Assembly (NCBI GenBank): GCA_018992685.1
Contig: JACVGT010000028.1
Span: 1-29,885 of the forward strand
From: Theionarchaea archaeon
GTDB taxonomy: Archaea > Methanobacteriota_B > Thermococci > Methanofastidiosales > SZ-28-30
DNA: 29,885 bases
Direction: 5' to 3'
The number at the start of each line of letters is the position of its first letter. Position 1 is the stretch's first letter. Below the pieces are notes generated by a model. That model was given only the letters and a program-made list of their open reading frames with translations. It was not told where the DNA came from and did not search any database. Positions 1,124-29,601 of this stretch are shown in pieces. A program made the translations under genes and the position numbers.

Positions 1124-2149
1124 TCAAGAAGTAGATTGAACCAACTTGTCCCGGGCAATTCTGAAAGCTTGCCTCACTTTTTTGTTAGTGGTCTGAGATC
1201 TCTTTTCAATATAATCCTCGAGGTTGTTCTCTCGAGTAGATTCTCGTATCATTTTCATTTCGTACAGAAAGATATTGAGGTTGTGCAGCGCCAGAATGAT
1301 TTCTGAGTCGCTGTCAGCCTTGATCATATCCTCATGAGTGTACTGCTGGCAGATTGCACACTCACAAGGGGGTAGGCTGTCTACACGTTTGATGTTCTTC
1401 ACCCGGGAAAGAGTCACAGGATGCACAAATTCCTTGAACGCTGCAGCCACCACATAAGCCCAGGAGTCAAAGGTGTCCACTCCCAGGTATGACAATGCGA
1501 AAAGAGCTGGAAACCCTGTTATCCCAAAACAGTGCACCGGCTTCTCAGTTTGCTGGCGCACCTCGTGTATCATGTCCACCAGATGGCCCAAATGATTCTT
1601 CCGGGGGACTAGAGAACCAATGCCGTACCCAGAAAACCCAGAATCAAGTTTCTGCATGTAGTCTGTTATCTCTCGAGGGTTGGAGCCATGGATAGCTCCA
1701 TACAGCTGCATGTCAGTTTTTTTCTGCTGAAGCATAATGTTGGCAGAGGCAATGGAGCGTTCCAGCCTAGCCTCCTTCTCCACGTCGTCAATATCGGGAA
1801 GGATTGGGAAATCAAAGGTGATGCCGATGTCGCAGCCCATGCGCTCCTGGTACTGCAAAACCTCCACCGGCTCAAGTTCCACGCCTTTCTTCATGTACTG
1901 AAACCCTCCGCTGTCAATGTAGACAGGGTTACGTGTGCGCAGCACATCATGAATCCCTTCTTTCAGAATTCGATCCCTGTAGGGATACTTCAAAATATGA
2001 TAGAGACTGAGAATAACGCCCTGAGACAGTTCCCACGGTGCAACGTAATCTCCTCCAATCCACTTGTCCCAGATGCCATAAGAGGCTGCCACAACAGGGA
2101 TAAGGGCGGGAGTCTTTATGATACCATGGTTTGTCACAATGTCGGGCAC
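1124..2149 (-). CDS. TGT-superfamily protein (TgtA/DpdA-like), no PUA domain
   Basis: 341-residue TIM-barrel protein related to queuine/archaeosine tRNA-guanine transglycosylases. Visible hallmarks are YIDSGGFQ (Asp79, catalytic region), TFDFP (111-115), GYGIGSLVPRKN (174-185), GVDTFDSWAY (223-232; Asp228 aligns with the base-exchange nucleophile) and the zinc site C262-x-C264-x2-C267 with His289. True archaeal TgtA carries a C-terminal PUA and linker domains that are absent here. The N-terminus is also short, starting just before TNHGIIKTPALIPV. It could be a tRNA or DNA base-exchange enzyme of the TGT/DpdA type; the substrate is unknown. It starts with GTG, preceded by GGAGGG (2156-2161) six bases upstream. 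The start lies inside the 3' end of the upstream winged-helix gene, so the two are translationally coupled. Confidence 0.8.
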   Translation of the reverse strand: MPDIVTNHGIIKTPALIPVVAASYGIWDKWIGGDYVAPWELSQGVILSLYHILKYPYRDRILKEGIHDVLRTRNPVYIDSGGFQYMKKGVELEPVEVLQYQERMGCDIGITFDFPILPDIDDVEKEARLERSIASANIMLQQKKTDMQLYGAIHGSNPREITDYMQKLDSGFSGYGIGSLVPRKNHLGHLVDMIHEVRQQTEKPVHCFGITGFPALFALSYLGVDTFDSWAYVVAAAFKEFVHPVTLSRVKNIKRVDSLPPCECAICQQYTHEDMIKADSDSEIILALHNLNIFLYEMKMIRESTRENNLEDYIEKRSQTTNKKVRQAFRIARDKLVQSTS

Positions 2150-3270
2150 GTAAGTCCCTCCAGAACCGTCTTCATCCTTTCCAAGTAGTCATCATAAGGA
2201 AAGTACAGTGTTTGATGTTCCTGATCGTAGTAATCCATGGAAATACTCTGTCCTCCCCATAGAGAGATGGTCTTTCGAAGCACAAAAAGCTGCTCATCTT
2301 CTATGAGCTCATACCTGTCCAGCTGATTCAACAACTTTATGGTAAATTCGGGGTGAGAAATACAGTAGATGACTCCATACATTCTCCCCGTTTGATATGA
2401 AGTCCACAGGAAGATCTTCTTGTAGAGTCGGGAATCCTTGGCAAAATTGAACAGCATCTTCTTGGTAGTCGAACTCTGGGGTGTGCGCACCAGGAGAAAG
2501 AAATGGGAGCACTTCCAGTACGACAAAGGAAAAATGTCACATACAGGCTGCAGGATCTTCCTCTCTGTCAAGAGCGTCTTTGCGTCTTTCCATTCTGCGT
2601 ATGTGTAGAAATTCCCCTGGGCCTTCTCCTGTTCCATGATATCAGTGAGGATGTTCTTCCCCTGCTCGAAACAGGTGATGAGCTCCTGTTCCCGGATGGA
2701 CAACTGAAGGCCTTCGAACTTGCCGAACGACAGATCAGGAATCTCCGTCTCGCCGAGCAGGTTGTCAAGAGAGGGGACAAAGTCAGCTTCTTCTGAATCT
2801 CTAAGAAAAACAGGTGGAATCACGTGTGTCTGATGGTCTTGAACATACAACTCATAGTGGAAAATTACCCCTTCCTCCTTGAGGAAATCAAACAGTTCCT
2901 TGACAGCCGTGGTATCACTGTCGAATATACTGACCATGATTCTCTTGAAAAACCGTTCTTCAATAGGATACATGTAGGAAAAACAGCCAATATTCTTAAG
3001 TAGAGAAACCATGAATCCGTACGATTGTTCAAACAGGATGATGGCAATTGACTTTCTCACGCTATTCCTGAAAATCTTGCCATAGTCCGTCTGGTAATAC
3101 GGTCCAACAAAGTATTCCTTCTCGTGCAGTATCCTCTTCAAGGTGGATACATACGGTGGATTCTTAAGATTTAAAAGATGAGCCAGTTCCTTATTGGTGA
3201 GCTCTGGCCATTTACCAATGTAATCGAGGAGTTTCATTTCAGTAAGGTTAAGATCGTCATTTTTTTCCAT
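2134..3270 (-). CDS. Winged-helix regulator with probable RAM-like ligand domains
   Basis: 378-residue protein of unrecognised specific family. Residues 1-60 form a winged helix typical of Lrp/AsnC- or MarR-like proteins (LTEMKLLDYIGKWPELTNKE). About 70-160 and 260-350 each have a beta-alpha-beta pattern reminiscent of AsnC/RAM effector domains (for example TGRMYGVIYCISHPEFTIKL); that assignment is inference. The ATG at 3270 is preferred over an upstream in-frame TTG (3288) because the TATA box at 3291-3303 centres 25 bp before it. The 3' end overlaps the TGT-like gene by 16 bp, forming a two-gene operon. It may regulate the operon or assist the TGT-fold enzyme on nucleic acid. Confidence 0.65.
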   Translation of the reverse strand: MEKNDDLNLTEMKLLDYIGKWPELTNKELAHLLNLKNPPYVSTLKRILHEKEYFVGPYYQTDYGKIFRNSVRKSIAIILFEQSYGFMVSLLKNIGCFSYMYPIEERFFKRIMVSIFDSDTTAVKELFDFLKEEGVIFHYELYVQDHQTHVIPPVFLRDSEEADFVPSLDNLLGETEIPDLSFGKFEGLQLSIREQELITCFEQGKNILTDIMEQEKAQGNFYTYAEWKDAKTLLTERKILQPVCDIFPLSYWKCSHFFLLVRTPQSSTTKKMLFNFAKDSRLYKKIFLWTSYQTGRMYGVIYCISHPEFTIKLLNQLDRYELIEDEQLFVLRKTISLWGGQSISMDYYDQEHQTLYFPYDDYLERMKTVLEGLTCPTL

Positions 3271-3290
3271 TTGTATAAATTTGACCAACC

Positions 3291-21447: not shown

Positions 21448-24400
21448 TTATATTCTTCCTAGGCAGCTGAGCACCTCATACACTTTCATCAGGGCTTGTA
21501 TTGCTTTGGTGGATGCTTCCTTGCACTTGCCCATCTCAAAGTACAGCTCCGCCTGGTCAATGTACATTTCTGCTTCTCTGAGAAGTTTCTCACAGAGCCT
21601 CACATCCCAGTTCTGCTTCTTCTTCTCCTCGAGCTTTGTTCTGGTTTCATACAGCAGGTTCTTGACCTTCTGGATAGTCCTCTCTACCTTGGAGCATTCA
21701 GAACTGAGTTTGGGCGACTCTGATTGATCGTCCTGGTCCTGATCGTCCTGATCTTGATCCTGATCATTTTGGTCCTGATCGTCCTGATCTTGATCCTGAT
21801 CATTTTGGTCCTGATCGTCTTGATCTTGATCCTGATTGTCTGAGCTTTGCTGTCCCTCTGTAATCGTCAGTGTATTGGACTTCTGCTCGGGGACTGTGAG
21901 GACGTCCCCTGTGCTGGTATCCACACCCTGTGCTGTTCCTGAAAAGACTACTGTTCCTTGCTTGACTGCGACATATGTCCAGAGGATAATTTCAAAGCTG
22001 TGACTGGGAACGCTAATAGATGTTCGGGATGGACCTGAAACGAGTTCTACAGCCCCCGTTCCTGAGACAGTCAATTCTGATGGGACTACGTTTACAGCTT
22101 CTGCCTGCCCAATGTTCTGCACCGTCATAGCCACGGTAAGAAGATCACCTTCTGCCACCTCTCTCGGAGTAACGATGACAAAGGCGGTCAGAATTGCAGG
22201 TGAGGCGACACCCACTGTTGACATGGCAGTGCTGGACACGAAAACCTGGCCTTCTGCTTCTCCTGAAACATAGCCGGTGAACACCACCGTTCCCCCCTGT
22301 GTGCCAGGGGTGGCTGCATACTTCCACTCAAATGTCTTTGTTTCACCCGGTTCCAGGGAGATGGGGGGTTTTGGTAAGGGACCAATCACCAGGCTGGCAG
22401 CTGCTGTGCCGGTCGTTGATGTGGACAGTGTTGAGGGCGTGACGTCTTCCAGAGTTACCTCTCCTGTGTTGTAGACCTCCATGGTCATGGTAATGGTAGA
22501 CCCTTCGATCACTCCGTAGAGCAGTGCTGAAATGTTTCCAGGTACGTCCGGTTCTATTGTTACAGTCACCGTTCCTGATTCAGCTTCTGATGACTCAATC
22601 TCTGCTCCAGTATCTTCTGCTCCTGCAGCGCTTCCTGTAAATATCAGTGAAGTACTCTCTTCTGCAGTGACTTCATATTCCCAGACAAAAGCTGCTGATT
22701 CTCCTCCGGGAATGTCCTGAGTCTCAGGCTCGGGGCCAGAGATCAACGTCACAGCATCGGGTGCTACCAGTGTCGGTACCACTGATTTCGCTAGTGCTTC
22801 CATGGTGTTGGTAACAGTCATGATGACTGTTATCTCATCGCCTTGTCCAGCTTCTGAACGGTTGGTTGAAATATCACAGTGGAGGGGTTGATCATCCTGT
22901 TCTGAAGGCTCTGCGGTTCCTGGTTCATCATCAGCCTGGTTGTCATCCGCTTCCTGTTCATCATCTTCTGATTCTCCAACAGTGAAGGTCACTGACTCTG
23001 TTTGACTCCAGTTCCCGACACTGTTCTGAGTCTTGACATCTAGGGTGTGATCCCCATCAGCCATATCAGTTGTGCCAAAGTCGAGGGTGAATTCCTCTTC
23101 AGGTTCATCAAAGCTACCGTCAGACGGAGTGGCTTGTTCCCATTCTCCCTGATCGACTCTGTACTGGACATCAGAAATGGTGTTCAGGCTGATATCGGTC
23201 TCTCCTGTCAAAGGATTCTGGTTAGGCAGTGGTGATTCCTTGGCTGTCCCAGCCCAGGATGTGTCCTGTTGGGTCAATGTAATAGCAGGCACTGTGTCAA
23301 AGACATCCAGGATTCCGTCAGAATCACTGTCACTCCAGCCCAGCTGTGTTCTCGCACTGACTTCGATCTGAGTATCCAGCATCCGCTCTCCTTTCATGAG
23401 AGAGGACACAGTAGACGTACAGGCTGTGCCATTCCACTCTGAATTGGTGGTTTCTCCACCGAGATATCCTGATGCTGTACTCTGTTCCACTTCGCTAGTG
23501 CATGCCTGATCCAATGCCCAGAAAACGTGACAGATCTCGTGGGCAATGACAGTGTCCATATTGGCAATTCCCCAGATGGAGTTGGAATAGGTAATAACCA
23601 CTCTCGGCCCACCCAGGAAAGAATAAGCTGAGTACCCGTCTGCAAACGCATTGTCTTCGTCTTCTGAATCATCCACCACAAAGATGATGAATGCCCAGTC
23701 CGAGTCATACGTATTCCGAAGATCATTGACGTATGAGTACTCATTGACCACATAATTCGGGCTTCCATATCCCAGGTGGTGCATAGCCTGCTCTTCCCAC
23801 AGGTCGTCATCAGTGTGGGGTCTTGTAATTGGTTCATAACCTACAGGTACATTGAAGTGCCACTCATATACAAAGGACAGCTGAGCTGCGGGTTCCTGCA
23901 TGAGTAGCCAGTTCAACCCATTCTGGATCTCTGAAACTACATTAACTTGCTCCTCTTCTGTCCAGTTCTCTGTGTCATCATCGATTGTTCCATTGCTCTC
24001 CAGGAACAGAACACTGACTGCCACAGTTCCTGCCAGATAGGCTGAGGTGTCCTGAAATCCTGCTCCGTACGGAAGCGCACCGTCATACTGAGAGGGCATC
24101 AGATACGATGAAATGTCAGGAAGAAGCTCACAATCATCTGGAGGAGGTTCAGGAGACAAGGGGGGTTCGTTCAACCCTGCGTCCACCGATAATCCCATGT
24201 AGTTGTAGTTCCATGCAGTCACTGGGTACAGCACGTCTTCAGGCCACTCCTTGCCTTCCGTATCTACTGGTCCTCTGTACACAGAAATACTGGGATCTTC
24301 AATCAGTGTCTCTTCTGCCTCCACAGAGAGCTTTCCAATAATAACTTCCGGCGGAAATACATGCATGACTTCTCCGTCAAGGTCCCGTATCAAGTCGCAG

Positions 24401-24558
24401 ACAGTGTCAATCTCTGGACCTTCTCCGTCCAGCAGTACAAGTGCTGGCAGATCTTCCAGGTCAGACTCTGATGCTACCGTCACTCCTGAAACCAGGAGTA
24501 GTGCTATCAATGAAAGCGAGTAGGTTACTCTCTTGCGGTTCGTCTGGTTTTTCTTCAT
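21448..24558 (-). CDS. Secreted metzincin-like metalloprotease with adhesive repeats and D/Q-rich linker
   Basis: 1036 residues. A signal peptide (1-29: basic start, then YSLSLIALLLVSGVTVAS) precedes a protease-like domain. IAHEICHVFWALDQ (338-351) gives HExxH with Asp350 at the metzincin third-ligand position, as in snapalysin. SSLMKG (385-390) may be the Met-turn. DSDSDGILDVFD (410-421) is a TSP3/dockerin-like calcium loop. Ig-like domains follow: one near 440-530, then three CARDB-like repeats with ITVIMTVTNT, ITMTMEVYNT and LTVAMTVQNI. A Asp/Gln tandem-repeat linker and a four-cysteine helical C-terminus end the protein. No C-terminal membrane anchor is seen, so it is released or bound by the tail. 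It shares a promoter/operator with the peptide at 5850. Start set by AAGGAGG (24566-24572). Confidence 0.82.
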   Translation of the reverse strand: MKKNQTNRKRVTYSLSLIALLLVSGVTVASESDLEDLPALVLLDGEGPEIDTVCDLIRDLDGEVMHVFPPEVIIGKLSVEAEETLIEDPSISVYRGPVDTEGKEWPEDVLYPVTAWNYNYMGLSVDAGLNEPPLSPEPPPDDCELLPDISSYLMPSQYDGALPYGAGFQDTSAYLAGTVAVSVLFLESNGTIDDDTENWTEEEQVNVVSEIQNGLNWLLMQEPAAQLSFVYEWHFNVPVGYEPITRPHTDDDLWEEQAMHHLGYGSPNYVVNEYSYVNDLRNTYDSDWAFIIFVVDDSEDEDNAFADGYSAYSFLGGPRVVITYSNSIWGIANMDTVIAHEICHVFWALDQACTSEVEQSTASGYLGGETTNSEWNGTACTSTVSSLMKGERMLDTQIEVSARTQLGWSDSDSDGILDVFDTVPAITLTQQDTSWAGTAKESPLPNQNPLTGETDISLNTISDVQYRVDQGEWEQATPSDGSFDEPEEEFTLDFGTTDMADGDHTLDVKTQNSVGNWSQTESVTFTVGESEDDEQEADDNQADDEPGTAEPSEQDDQPLHCDISTNRSEAGQGDEITVIMTVTNTMEALAKSVVPTLVAPDAVTLISGPEPETQDIPGGESAAFVWEYEVTAEESTSLIFTGSAAGAEDTGAEIESSEAESGTVTVTIEPDVPGNISALLYGVIEGSTITMTMEVYNTGEVTLEDVTPSTLSTSTTGTAAASLVIGPLPKPPISLEPGETKTFEWKYAATPGTQGGTVVFTGYVSGEAEGQVFVSSTAMSTVGVASPAILTAFVIVTPREVAEGDLLTVAMTVQNIGQAEAVNVVPSELTVSGTGAVELVSGPSRTSISVPSHSFEIILWTYVAVKQGTVVFSGTAQGVDTSTGDVLTVPEQKSNTLTITEGQQSSDNQDQDQDDQDQNDQDQDQDDQDQNDQDQDQDDQDQDDQSESPKLSSECSKVERTIQKVKNLLYETRTKLEEKKKQNWDVRLCEKLLREAEMYIDQAELYFEMGKCKEASTKAIQALMKVYEVLSCLGRI
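21729..21837. repeat. 36-bp tandem repeat encoding the D/Q-rich linker
   Basis: 21745-21780 and 21781-21816 are identical 36-bp units, with partial copies on both sides. In frame they encode 12-residue blocks made of Asp and Gln with one Asn. They are coding, flexible and highly acidic, and likely vary in copy number among strains. Confidence 0.85.
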
Positions 24559-25461: not shown

Positions 25462-26472
25462 ATGTACACAGTGAACTCCGGGTACTCGCAATTTGACGGC
25501 AGGAACATTATTTTTGCCCGTGCCCTGTCTGATCCTCAATGCCCGTGCTACGGTCACTCGGTCGAGGAGCATCTTCCAGATATTGTTAAGGAGGGGAAGT
25601 CTGGGTATTCTCTGATTGATGTTGCCCTGTATGAGGCAGCATGGGTAGTATACGAGACGTATGGGGGTGCCTTTTCATGGGGACGCCTCCGTCCTTTGGA
25701 TGCAAAACCCGAGCTGGACAGGCTTGAATCATATAATCCCGGTCCAGAACAGCTGACTGCAGTGGTGAAGAAAGCAGCTCGCTTTTATGGGGCCTCTCTC
25801 GTGGGTATTTCCAGAATTGACTCCCGATGGGTATATTCACACGATCGAGAAGGGACTCCTGTAGAGATTCCTGAAGGAGCAACCCACGCTGTAGTCATGG
25901 CCCTTGAAATGGACCCCCGGGGCATTGGGACTACTCCTGCGCTGACGTCATCAGCTGTCGTGGGGCTAGCATATTCCAGAATAGCCTTCTTGCTTGCCTG
26001 TATGGGTGAATTCATTAGAAACCTGGGATACAAGGCCATTCAGATGGGTAATGATACAGCCCTGAGCATTCCACTGGCTGTGGATGCGGGATTGGGAGAA
26101 CTGGGAAGACATGGACTGCTGATCACTCCTCAACTCGGGTCCAGAGTACGCATCTGCAAGATATTCACTGACATGGAGCTGGTGTGCGATAACCCTCTTG
26201 ACACAGGAATTCAACAGGTTTGTAAGACGTGTAGAAAATGTGCGGAAGCCTGTGAGGTTGACGCCATCTCTTTTGAGGAAGAACCCACCTTCGAACCAGT
26301 GTGTAAATCAAACAATCCGGGGGTCCTGAAGTGGCCGGTGAACGCGGAGAAATGTTATGCGTTCTGGTGTGAAAATGGCGGAGACTGTGCCACGTGTATC
26401 ACAGCATGCCCTTTCACCGTAAGGACAGGTGTCAAGGAGACAGCACCCGATGACTTCTGGAATACCTTGTAG
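25462..26472 (+). CDS. Reductive dehalogenase-like corrinoid iron-sulfur protein, soluble short form
   Basis: 336 residues. The B12-binding core resembles RdhA: ASLVGISRIDSRWVYSH, HAVVMALEMDPRGIG, LACMGEFIRNLGYKAIQMGN and IPLAVDAGLGELGRHGLLIT, then PQLGSRVRICKIFTDMEL. Two ferredoxin-like clusters follow: C254/C257/C260/C264 and a second set among C298, C303, C309, C312 and C316 (CITACPF). Respiratory RdhA proteins are longer, carry a Tat signal and sit beside the RdhB anchor; both are missing here. It may be a cytosolic dehalogenase or a related corrinoid reductase such as the QueG branch. The RdhA-type C-terminal KW...C...W pattern favours the former. No cobamide genes are in view. Confidence 0.8.
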   Translation: MYTVNSGYSQFDGRNIIFARALSDPQCPCYGHSVEEHLPDIVKEGKSGYSLIDVALYEAAWVVYETYGGAFSWGRLRPLDAKPELDRLESYNPGPEQLTAVVKKAARFYGASLVGISRIDSRWVYSHDREGTPVEIPEGATHAVVMALEMDPRGIGTTPALTSSAVVGLAYSRIAFLLACMGEFIRNLGYKAIQMGNDTALSIPLAVDAGLGELGRHGLLITPQLGSRVRICKIFTDMELVCDNPLDTGIQQVCKTCRKCAEACEVDAISFEEEPTFEPVCKSNNPGVLKWPVNAEKCYAFWCENGGDCATCITACPFTVRTGVKETAPDDFWNTL

Positions 26473-26527: not shown

Positions 26528-28741
26528 CTAGATCAGCTGAAGGGTGGGATCACCAAATAACACAAAGCAGCTCCAGGCAATATTATGAGTGGCAAAGGCA
26601 TGCTCTTTTGCTTTCCGCAGGGCCTCTCCCAGGGTATGGTGATGGAGACAGTTGGTGTAAAAATCCACTGCCAGACGGGCCGCTGCCACATCATGAACAT
26701 CCCAGAGACTGCCCAGATATCCCAGGGCCCCTCCCTGCAGGAATGCTCCTGCCAGAGAAGTCGCCAGAACCCCTGCTGATCTACATCCATTAACAAAGAC
26801 AAGCGGGGCTCCTGCAAGGTGACGCAATATGACATTCCCTTTCAGCACGCCATCTGACAGATCGAGTCCATGTTCAGTGACGTGTCCCGCATAATGGATA
26901 ATGGTATATCCTGAGTGCAGTCGTGCTCTCACGGTTTCTGTTGTGGCTTCCTCCTGTTTAATATAATCAACAGTATCTATGAGCCGACTCAACGATTCAG
27001 CCAGGTAATCACACTCGCGCACAGCCTCTCCCAGGGTGCTGTCAGGATCAGCTATGACTAATGCCCTGTTCTTTTCCACCTCCTGGGGCAGATTGAGAAC
27101 CAGCGGGCCATGCACCCGGAGACGGCGTCCAATCCCATATTGGAGGGCAAAAAAGGTTTGATCCCACATGAGCTCAAAAGGAACATCAACCAGATCTGTT
27201 TCCAGCACAAGGTGAGAAATGTCAGGAACCCGGTATGATGATTCACTGAGCACACTCTCAAATAGAGATTCCCCTTTTTGCTTTAAGATGTCAAGAACAG
27301 GGGGATTATCCACCGTGTACGTTCTCAGATATGCAAGGGTACCCAAAGCAGATTTCATGACTGAGTTGATATCATATGCCTTCTGCTGAAGTTCATTCAC
27401 AGAACAGGTGGTGACAGATGGTACGACTGCAGAAAGTGTTCCTCCTGCAGGCTCCAGAGACACTTCTACCTTATCGCCCCGTGACATCACAGAGAGCAAT
27501 ACCGATTTGGGGACTCTCACTCTTCTCTTCCCCAGAATGTATTCCAACAGGTCTCGATCTCTTTCTGGAAGTTCTGTCCTTACGAGGTCAAACTTCTCAG
27601 TGAAGGCATCCATCTCTGCTGAGGGCTGCAATCCATAAACGAGCCCCTTTGGACTTTCGTAAACCGACAATTCGCCCTCCTCTTTGAGCTCATTAAGCAG
27701 TGGAAAGGTGTCTTCAAGTTTCAGTCCCAGCCTATCTGCCACTATCTCTGGTTCCAGTACATATTCATTTCTACTCCATGTAACAATGTCCTTACGCCAC
27801 TGCTGCACTTGCTCTTCCCTGCTCTGCAAGTACTGGCTGACTGGGATGAGGACAATCGGCGTCATTAAAGCCCAGAAGAGGAGCTCAATCACAGAGCACG
27901 CACGGAAAACTCCTGCAGGAGAATAGCCTAACACGAGATCACCGCAGAAGGATGTCGATTTCACAGGGCGAAAGGGAAGAGGATTGGGTAGAAAACGCTT
28001 CATACGTTGAAAATCCAGCTCAGATCCTCTGAGAAATTCCAGGACTGCAAACACAAACGGAGGAAGAAGTATGAAAATGAGAACCCACCCATCCGTTCGC
28101 ACCATGTAGTACAGGACAGCAACAGGAATTCCCATACTGAAGACTACATCACGTCTGTAGCTCACCTGAAATCGCGTAATCGCAACAAGTATTCCCATGA
28201 CCCATGCCCAGAAAATCGTGAAAATCATGGCCACCTCCAGGTATCCTCTGTTCGTTATCACGTGGACGAAGTCAACAAGAATCACACAGGAGAGAATGGC
28301 TATTAACTTGTGACCAACAATATAGTGGTGTTCTTGCCGGTAATACCAGCGAGAAATCAAGAAAAAGATCAGGACAGAGCTGAGACGTACCAGGCGATCA
28401 TCTGTAGTCCCCAGTGATCCTCTGAGGAGATTCTGGATTATGATTGTCCCACCAATGGCCAAACTCCCCAGGAAGGAGAGTACAAATAGATAGAATGAAA
28501 TGTACGTTGTCTCAAAAAACCGGTGATGCGTGTGATGATAGAACTGGTGGTGTTTGGTATGCGCTTTCACCAGGGCCTGGGGGGTGGGACGTTTTCTGGA
28601 ACGAAGAAATCGAGTCCACAGTCTGTGAACAGAGAACACGTCATCTATGATCACAGCAGCAGCAAGGATTCCCGCCCCAAGAAGAATAACTGCAAACTGA
28701 AACTCCTCCTCGCTCATGATTCTTTGTGACAGTTGCATCAT
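26528..28741 (-). CDS. Membrane-anchored CHAT (caspase-like) protein
   Basis: 737 residues. About eight membrane segments lie within residues 14-305. Histidine clusters sit between TM1 and TM2 (HTKHHQFYHHTHH, 61-73) and after TM3 (HHYIVGH, 138-144). Residues 315-375 look like a winged helix or its remnant (PEIVADRLGLKLEDTFPLLN). Residues 500-737 are a CHAT domain with IIHYAGH (His620) and VFVNGCRSAG (Cys653), the caspase-like dyad, plus GALGYLGSLWDVHD and SCFVLFGDPTLQLI. CHAT proteins are clan CD proteases or their scaffolds, often in regulated cell death or gasdermin-type defence. No gasdermin or TPR partner is visible here. TATA box at 28766-28774; leaderless. Confidence 0.85.
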   Translation of the reverse strand: MMQLSQRIMSEEEFQFAVILLGAGILAAAVIIDDVFSVHRLWTRFLRSRKRPTPQALVKAHTKHHQFYHHTHHRFFETTYISFYLFVLSFLGSLAIGGTIIIQNLLRGSLGTTDDRLVRLSSVLIFFLISRWYYRQEHHYIVGHKLIAILSCVILVDFVHVITNRGYLEVAMIFTIFWAWVMGILVAITRFQVSYRRDVVFSMGIPVAVLYYMVRTDGWVLIFILLPPFVFAVLEFLRGSELDFQRMKRFLPNPLPFRPVKSTSFCGDLVLGYSPAGVFRACSVIELLFWALMTPIVLIPVSQYLQSREEQVQQWRKDIVTWSRNEYVLEPEIVADRLGLKLEDTFPLLNELKEEGELSVYESPKGLVYGLQPSAEMDAFTEKFDLVRTELPERDRDLLEYILGKRRVRVPKSVLLSVMSRGDKVEVSLEPAGGTLSAVVPSVTTCSVNELQQKAYDINSVMKSALGTLAYLRTYTVDNPPVLDILKQKGESLFESVLSESSYRVPDISHLVLETDLVDVPFELMWDQTFFALQYGIGRRLRVHGPLVLNLPQEVEKNRALVIADPDSTLGEAVRECDYLAESLSRLIDTVDYIKQEEATTETVRARLHSGYTIIHYAGHVTEHGLDLSDGVLKGNVILRHLAGAPLVFVNGCRSAGVLATSLAGAFLQGGALGYLGSLWDVHDVAAARLAVDFYTNCLHHHTLGEALRKAKEHAFATHNIAWSCFVLFGDPTLQLI

Positions 28742-28851: not shown

Positions 28852-29601
28852 TTATGTTGTGGGACCTTCTGTAAAAAGTTCTTCATTATATACTTCAATT
28901 CCAGAGTTGGTAATCTTCAATGGGCGCATGTCTTCATCAAACCCTGTCCCTCGCATTTTCTGAATCTCGATCGCCCTTCGCTTTCTCCCGCTCTCGATAA
29001 AGGTGTGCATCTTCAAGACTCCATCGCTGATGTAGTTCTCCAGGCTGGGGGTGTCTTCTGTGGTCTCTGATGTAAGAAGACAGGTACATCCTGATTCTAT
29101 CAGAAATTCCATCAATCTAAAAAGCATCCGTCTCTTCTTGACCTCATCTCCATAGAACATCTTGAGAGTGCTGAGGGAATCCAGGGCAATCCTCCTGGTA
29201 CTTGGCTTCAAGGCAGAAGATATAAGTCTTGTGACACTGGGCAGGTTGATAATCACATCAGTCTCCGTCACTAATTCCTTCTTCTGGGAACCCGTGCCCA
29301 GAACAGCGTCTAGCCGGGGTCCTGGTTCACGCCTGGGAGTATGTTCAACAGGATTAATAAAGGTTATCTGATTAAGATCCCATCCAAAGGTCTCAATATT
29401 TCTTTGTATCCGTTCTTTGCTCTCACCCAGCGAAAGGAAAATACCGTCTTCACCATCCATTACCCCGCGCATGAGAAACTGAATGGATAGAATTGTCTTT
29501 CCTGAACCTGGTCCTCCTGCTACAATGATGGCACTGTTCTCTGGAAATCCGCCACTGAACATCCTGTCGAGGCCAACAACGCCGGTTGGAACTTTTTTCA
29601 T
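28852..29601 (-). CDS. KaiC-like RecA-superfamily ATPase, single domain
   Basis: 249 residues. The start VPTGVVGLDRMFSGGFPENS matches KaiC/RadA-related archaeal ATPases. Walker A is GGPGSGKT (29-36). Glu residues of FLSLGESKERIQRN and the Walker B strand RRIALDSLSTLKMF follow, with the C-terminal pattern ISDGVLKMHTFIESGRKRRA and IQKMRGTGFDED typical of KaiC domains. There is one domain rather than two, as in most archaeal homologues, which link signalling, motility and DNA-associated processes. The precise role is unknown. TATA box at 29621-29631 with leaderless spacing. It is on the same strand as the CHAT gene but separately promoted. Confidence 0.88.
   Translation of the reverse strand: MKKVPTGVVGLDRMFSGGFPENSAIIVAGGPGSGKTILSIQFLMRGVMDGEDGIFLSLGESKERIQRNIETFGWDLNQITFINPVEHTPRREPGPRLDAVLGTGSQKKELVTETDVIINLPSVTRLISSALKPSTRRIALDSLSTLKMFYGDEVKKRRMLFRLMEFLIESGCTCLLTSETTEDTPSLENYISDGVLKMHTFIESGRKRRAIEIQKMRGTGFDEDMRPLKITNSGIEVYNEELFTEGPTT

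Follow-up and report, generated by a model that had tools for sequence, protein, structure and literature searches.

We describe a gene in a Theionarchaea genome for a putative CHAT cysteine protease (P0001, 737 residues) with an intact His-Cys dyad, in which the catalytic domain lies at the C-terminus behind a polytopic membrane domain and a winged helix. By sequence, one CHAT subfamily, to which P0001 belongs, stands behind exchangeable membrane-anchored sensors in these archaea. The reading we prefer, with a probability of about one half, is that P0001 is a protease of membrane-receptor type in which a sensor gates cytosolic cleavage, which may serve a stress response, defense, or cell arrest. 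The arrangement of a polytopic membrane domain and a winged helix ahead of a C-terminal CHAT domain was not met in the limited literature that we searched, although membrane CHATs and receptor-like caspase homologs are already known.

The gene and its reading frame

The window analyzed here is an entire contig of 29,885 bases from a Theionarchaea MAG with a genome of 3.03 Mb (G000). To our knowledge, this is a lineage without a cultured member. The gene is a complete open reading frame on the reverse strand, from an ATG at 28741 to a stop at 26528 (26528..28741, stop codon included). By codon usage, its frame comes out best of the six throughout the protein, which we divided into four sections; the preference is least marked in the membrane section. 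G+C is even along the whole gene. Both observations argue against a misjoined or spurious reading frame, and codon usage gives no sign that coding DNA has become joined to non-coding DNA by accident. A search for a TATA-like consensus gave a result no better than shuffled sequences.

The CHAT domain and its catalytic dyad

The only profiles that match P0001 are those of CHAT (PF12770, E-value 2.7e-25, 89.8 bits for a cut-off of 24, residues 510-731) and, over the same residues but more weakly, Peptidase_C25 (PF01364, E-value 1.4e-13, 51.3 bits for a cut-off of 23). There is no match to a NACHT/STAND NTPase or to TPR, the features that soluble CHAT-STAND-TPR proteins have fused to their CHAT domain. 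We place the whole caspase-like domain, from the profile match and the alignment, at residues 510-737 (26531..27214, reverse strand, as are all features of the gene).

An earlier note on this DNA had proposed an intact dyad of His620 and Cys653, and both residues are where it placed them. His620 (codon 26882..26884, in the motif IIHYAGH) and Cys653 (codon 26783..26785, in FVNGC) align with the His and Cys of CHAT relatives, including those of Lentzea and Rhodococcus ("IHYAGH" and "FLNAC"). The region just before the domain, residues 400-509 (27215..27544), is in part common to other membrane CHATs and to the actinobacterial relatives.

A membrane domain with seven or eight helices

The membrane domain, delimited from sequence and insertion energies, spans residues 11-303 (27833..28711). 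The same note had counted eight membrane segments. On a scale that follows a published predictor, seven non-overlapping segments between residues 14 and 303 are predicted to insert at an energy of about 0 or less (candidate helices 14-36, 80-107, 116-135, 140-162, 167-191, 218-238, and 278-303). These seven are borne out, while the eighth, 195-215, is marginal at +0.75, so that the count stands at seven or eight.

The first long loop holds a His-rich stretch, HTKHHQFYHHTHH (residues 61-73, 28523..28561), in which 7 of the 13 residues are His. We weighed a desaturase- or hydroxylase-like chemistry for this loop and do not propose it; Pfam gave no match for the membrane domain. The loop also carries nine Lys/Arg, and most of the Lys/Arg residues of the membrane domain are found in loops 1, 3, 5, and 7, a concentration that favors the N-terminus being outside. 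The side of the C-terminus is ambiguous from sequence, and it depends on segment 195-215: eight helices with the N-terminus out would put the CHAT domain outside, and if 195-215 is not a helix, the domain would be inside. In 115 genomes of the phylum, we found no credible relative of the N-terminal 407 residues: every non-self hit has an E-value >0.002 and either is short or falls in a frame broken by stops.

A winged helix between membrane and protease

The segment that joins the membrane domain to the protease, residues 304-374 (27620..27832), has no useful Pfam match. An AlphaFold2 model of residues 304-400 alone has a mean pLDDT of 74, and about 80 over the core, and it runs helix-helix-helix-strand-strand, that is, the three helices and two-stranded wing of the winged-helix fold. 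It superposes on many solved winged helices with Z of 8-9.7 over about 60-70 residues. This confirms the winged-helix-like linker that had been suspected from the sequence. The same residues 304-374 reach a pLDDT of 67-81 in the model of the full-length protein. That model, made with four sequences, is poor overall (pLDDT 44), and the geometry of the dyad and of the membrane domain is not readable from it. Structure prediction, which had been suggested as a check, thus resolved the winged helix on its own piece but not the full-length protein.

The top fold match is to Z-alpha domains (Z 9.7), tied with many other winged helices. The Asn, Tyr, and Trp that mark Z-alpha are, by eye, not at matching positions in P0001. 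For both reasons, we do not claim Z-DNA or Z-RNA binding. We also set aside an identity with DDRGK1, for which the sequence match is weak (E-value 0.066) and no better a guide.

One CHAT subfamily behind different membrane anchors

The close CHAT relatives of P0001 have 41-42% identity to it, and each of them has a membrane anchor. One, P0002, is in the same genome (contig C34). It is a protein of 1256 residues with a hydrophobic N-terminus, WD40-like and FG-GAP propellers, two to three helices, and a CHAT domain that keeps the catalytic dyad. The others are in a sister species (G001, the one relative of the same genus in the comparison, which the GTDB scan names Theionarchaea archaeon SZ_28-30, JACVGW01), a genome with a CHAT gene on a contig of 60,733 bases. 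There, on contig C8, a gene interrupted by a masked stretch (P0004/P0003) encodes GIFT, MopE metal-binding repeats, one helix, and CHAT, and a fragment at the end of contig C106 encodes FG-GAP, one helix, and the beginning of the CHAT region. In P0003 the catalytic His is replaced by Glu, so that the dyad is kept in one (P0002) of the two complete close paralogs, and not every member of the group need be an active protease. A basic stretch comes right after the single helix in P0003 (RRMIK) and in the fragment (GRRMGR), from which the CHAT domain of the single-helix members should be inside the cell. P0002 and P0003/P0004 share with P0001 the C-terminal CHAT of the same subfamily behind a membrane anchor; where P0001 has a polytopic domain and a winged helix, they have large ectodomains (beta-propeller/FG-GAP or GIFT-MopE) and one to three helices.

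When 13 CHAT domains are placed in a tree, those of the three membrane CHATs come together with moderate support (85/89), separate from the soluble CHAT-STAND-TPR proteins that these genomes also encode. A long-branched Leptospira plasmid CHAT, the one match of the plasmid search (29%), sits among the membrane CHATs. On that plasmid (NZ_CP092665.1; locus L080, 3001-3747), it is an unannotated CHAT-like frame that follows a gene of the sigma-70 family and a hypothetical one. Searches of viral contigs and phages gave no relative. A GTDB scan with P0001 found no relative, and one with the CHAT alignment matched only the sister species and the Lentzea and Rhodococcus CHATs; these scans use few degenerate peptides, and distant relatives could escape them.

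A search for the same architecture, as the earlier note had advised, therefore finds the CHAT subfamily behind other membrane anchors, but no relative of the polytopic domain in the 115 genomes. The idea that a membrane sensor controls the CHAT domain is strengthened by related CHATs standing behind different membrane-anchored ectodomains, while the gating itself is something we infer.

Other CHAT-like genes appeared in these comparisons. At three loci (L019, L021, and L023), soluble CHAT-NTPase-TPR genes share flanking genes for a winged-helix-like protein of ~360 residues and a TPR/PadR-like protein of ~455 residues, which form a conserved module; the window has a 23% relative of the first of these flanking proteins at 2134-3288. 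Several genomes of the same class have open frames of about 2000 residues with a C25/CHAT-like domain (L030, L032, and other loci), and the one at L030 is a secreted-type protein with repeats.

Presence and absence between sister species

Neighbor proteins in the syntenic block beside P0001 are mostly 82-95% identical between the two species, and other genes mostly 82-97%. P0002 is flanked by TruD and an XPB-type helicase. In the sister species these two genes (86% and 93%) adjoin, and P0002 is absent: the flanks align to the TruD stop and resume about 131 bases past the CHAT stop, with a 16-base junction. About 4 kb holding P0002 alone are present in one species and absent from the other, by insertion or loss. 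Conversely, P0003/P0004 lie in the sister species between ThiW and a KaiC-NAC pair, a site that in the host of P0001 is taken up by three PqqD-radical SAM-SPASM genes and an M50-like gene. These genes (L084, 3212-8706, contig C3), with the M50-like one a peptidase, make up a peptide-modification (RiPP-like) cluster.

Given the clean absence of P0002 and the other genes at the P0003/P0004 site, the membrane CHAT group looks accessory, one effector with swapped sensors, and the same most likely holds for the P0001 gene. For the full P0001 architecture, no ortholog was found in the genomes of the phylum or in the GTDB scan. The reason for this is that the syntenic contig of the sister species breaks just before the gene, ending inside the neighboring reductive-dehalogenase-like gene. 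In the window, that neighbor (25462-26472) encodes a reductive-dehalogenase-family protein (TIGR02486, above cut-off) that is 82% conserved in the sister species.

The neighborhood

Upstream of P0001, 110 bases away and on the same strand, there is a KaiC-like gene (28852-29601), and the contig ends 284 bases beyond it, where the visible upstream context stops. The earlier note had pointed to this gene as the closest neighbor. As a conserved partner it finds no support, even though a KaiC-like neighbor occurs at two of the three membrane-CHAT loci (contig C8 of the sister species included): the KaiC-NAC block of C8 occurs in the P0001 host without CHAT, this genome has 18 KaiC-like genes above cut-off, and the co-location is likely due to chance.

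The other scanned neighbors in the window are ordinary genes of housekeeping, transport, signaling, and surface types, such as lysyl-tRNA synthetase, SRP54, pelota, a transporter, and a sensor kinase. Among them, no substrate or effector gene was recognized, in agreement with the earlier observation that no small partner or substrate is obvious nearby. At 21448-24558 lies a probable surface protein of 1036 residues with a HEICH metallopeptidase-like motif, CARDB-type domains, and an acidic Asp/Gln repeat tail. Conservation of this protein in the sister species drops in the second half (58% against 84%).

A proposed receptor-type protease and its alternatives

We propose that the CHAT domain of P0001 would lie in the cytoplasm and that the membrane domain would sense a signal, either within the membrane or from across it. 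The change might then be relayed, or a target recruited, by the winged helix and the pre-CHAT region, which would move the dyad into a new position, as happens in Csx29, after which a protein substrate would be cut. In Csx29, the TPR-CHAT protein of type III-E CRISPR, the dyad is repositioned allosterically (PMC10028731, PMC9729208). It too has a CHAT domain with a His-Cys dyad, and it shows how a distant sensor could activate such a domain allosterically; unlike P0001, it is soluble, has a TPR sensor, is bound to Cas7-11, and has its substrate, Csx30, encoded next door. A second comparison is with the metacaspase-CHASE2 protein of Trichodesmium (PMC3501461), in which a receptor with several helices is fused to a metacaspase. 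Both proteins join a multi-helix receptor, putative in P0001, to a caspase-like domain with a predicted cytoplasmic location, but the cyanobacterial one has a peptidase C14 domain instead of CHAT, a defined CHASE2 receptor domain, and the reverse domain order.

The membrane domain could instead sense infection or membrane damage, and the CHAT domain cut a target that kills or arrests the cell. Membrane CHAT genes come and go between otherwise similar species, swapped sensors on one effector are typical of conflict systems, and a CRISPR system has a CHAT protease in Csx29 (PMC10028731). Yet PADLOC defense families give no match for P0001 or P0003, and match P0002 once, only in the propeller; no gasdermin-, nuclease-, or pore-like neighbor was recognized in the window, where the scanned genes are ordinary; and phage and viral contigs have no relatives. 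The death or defense switch that the earlier note envisaged thus finds no direct support. A defense or death role is possible, and we consider this specific form of it rather unlikely.

HetF of Anabaena suggests another role, in which a membrane CHAT controls division, the cell surface, or differentiation, and not death. HetF has CHAT, one transmembrane helix, and TPR, it loses function when its conserved active site is mutated, and it joins the divisome (PMC8406250). The CHAT domain is held at the membrane in both proteins, and the paralogs of P0001 have surface-type ectodomains (FG-GAP, MopE). But in HetF the CHAT domain is N-terminal, with a single helix, whereas in P0001 it is C-terminal, behind seven or eight helices and a winged helix, without TPR, and the accessory distribution of the group is unlike that of a core division factor. 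A developmental or envelope-stress protease of this kind seems to us unlikely.

If all eight helices are real, the positive charges, which favor loops 1, 3, 5, and 7 inside, would leave the C-terminus outside, and the CHAT domain could process surface proteins as C25/PorU-type peptidases do. The Peptidase_C25 match points the same way, a secreted or surface location being a feature of that (gingipain/PorU type) family. The marginal segment 195-215, without which the C-terminus is inside, the single-pass relatives with their CHAT inside, and a winged helix ahead of the protease, which suits the cytoplasm, all make this quite unlikely.

We regard as improbable that the CHAT domain, on a signal, severs P0001 at its tether, which leads from the membrane domain to about residue 304, and that the winged-helix/CHAT protein so released acts on DNA or on cytosolic targets; if true, this would be a one-protein counterpart of the regulated release of membrane-bound transcription factors. 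That P0001 is a non-catalytic scaffold, with its CHAT domain degenerated to a binding module, as the Glu of P0003 might suggest, is most improbable with the dyad intact in P0001, P0002, and the actinobacterial relatives.

Animals and cyanobacteria have caspase-fold enzymes on receptors, and the receptor-type reading of P0001 and its relatives suggests that archaea too join a CHAT protease to exchangeable membrane sensors. Related membrane CHAT genes differ in presence between close species, and the group provides concrete candidates for how a membrane signal may switch on a caspase-like protease.
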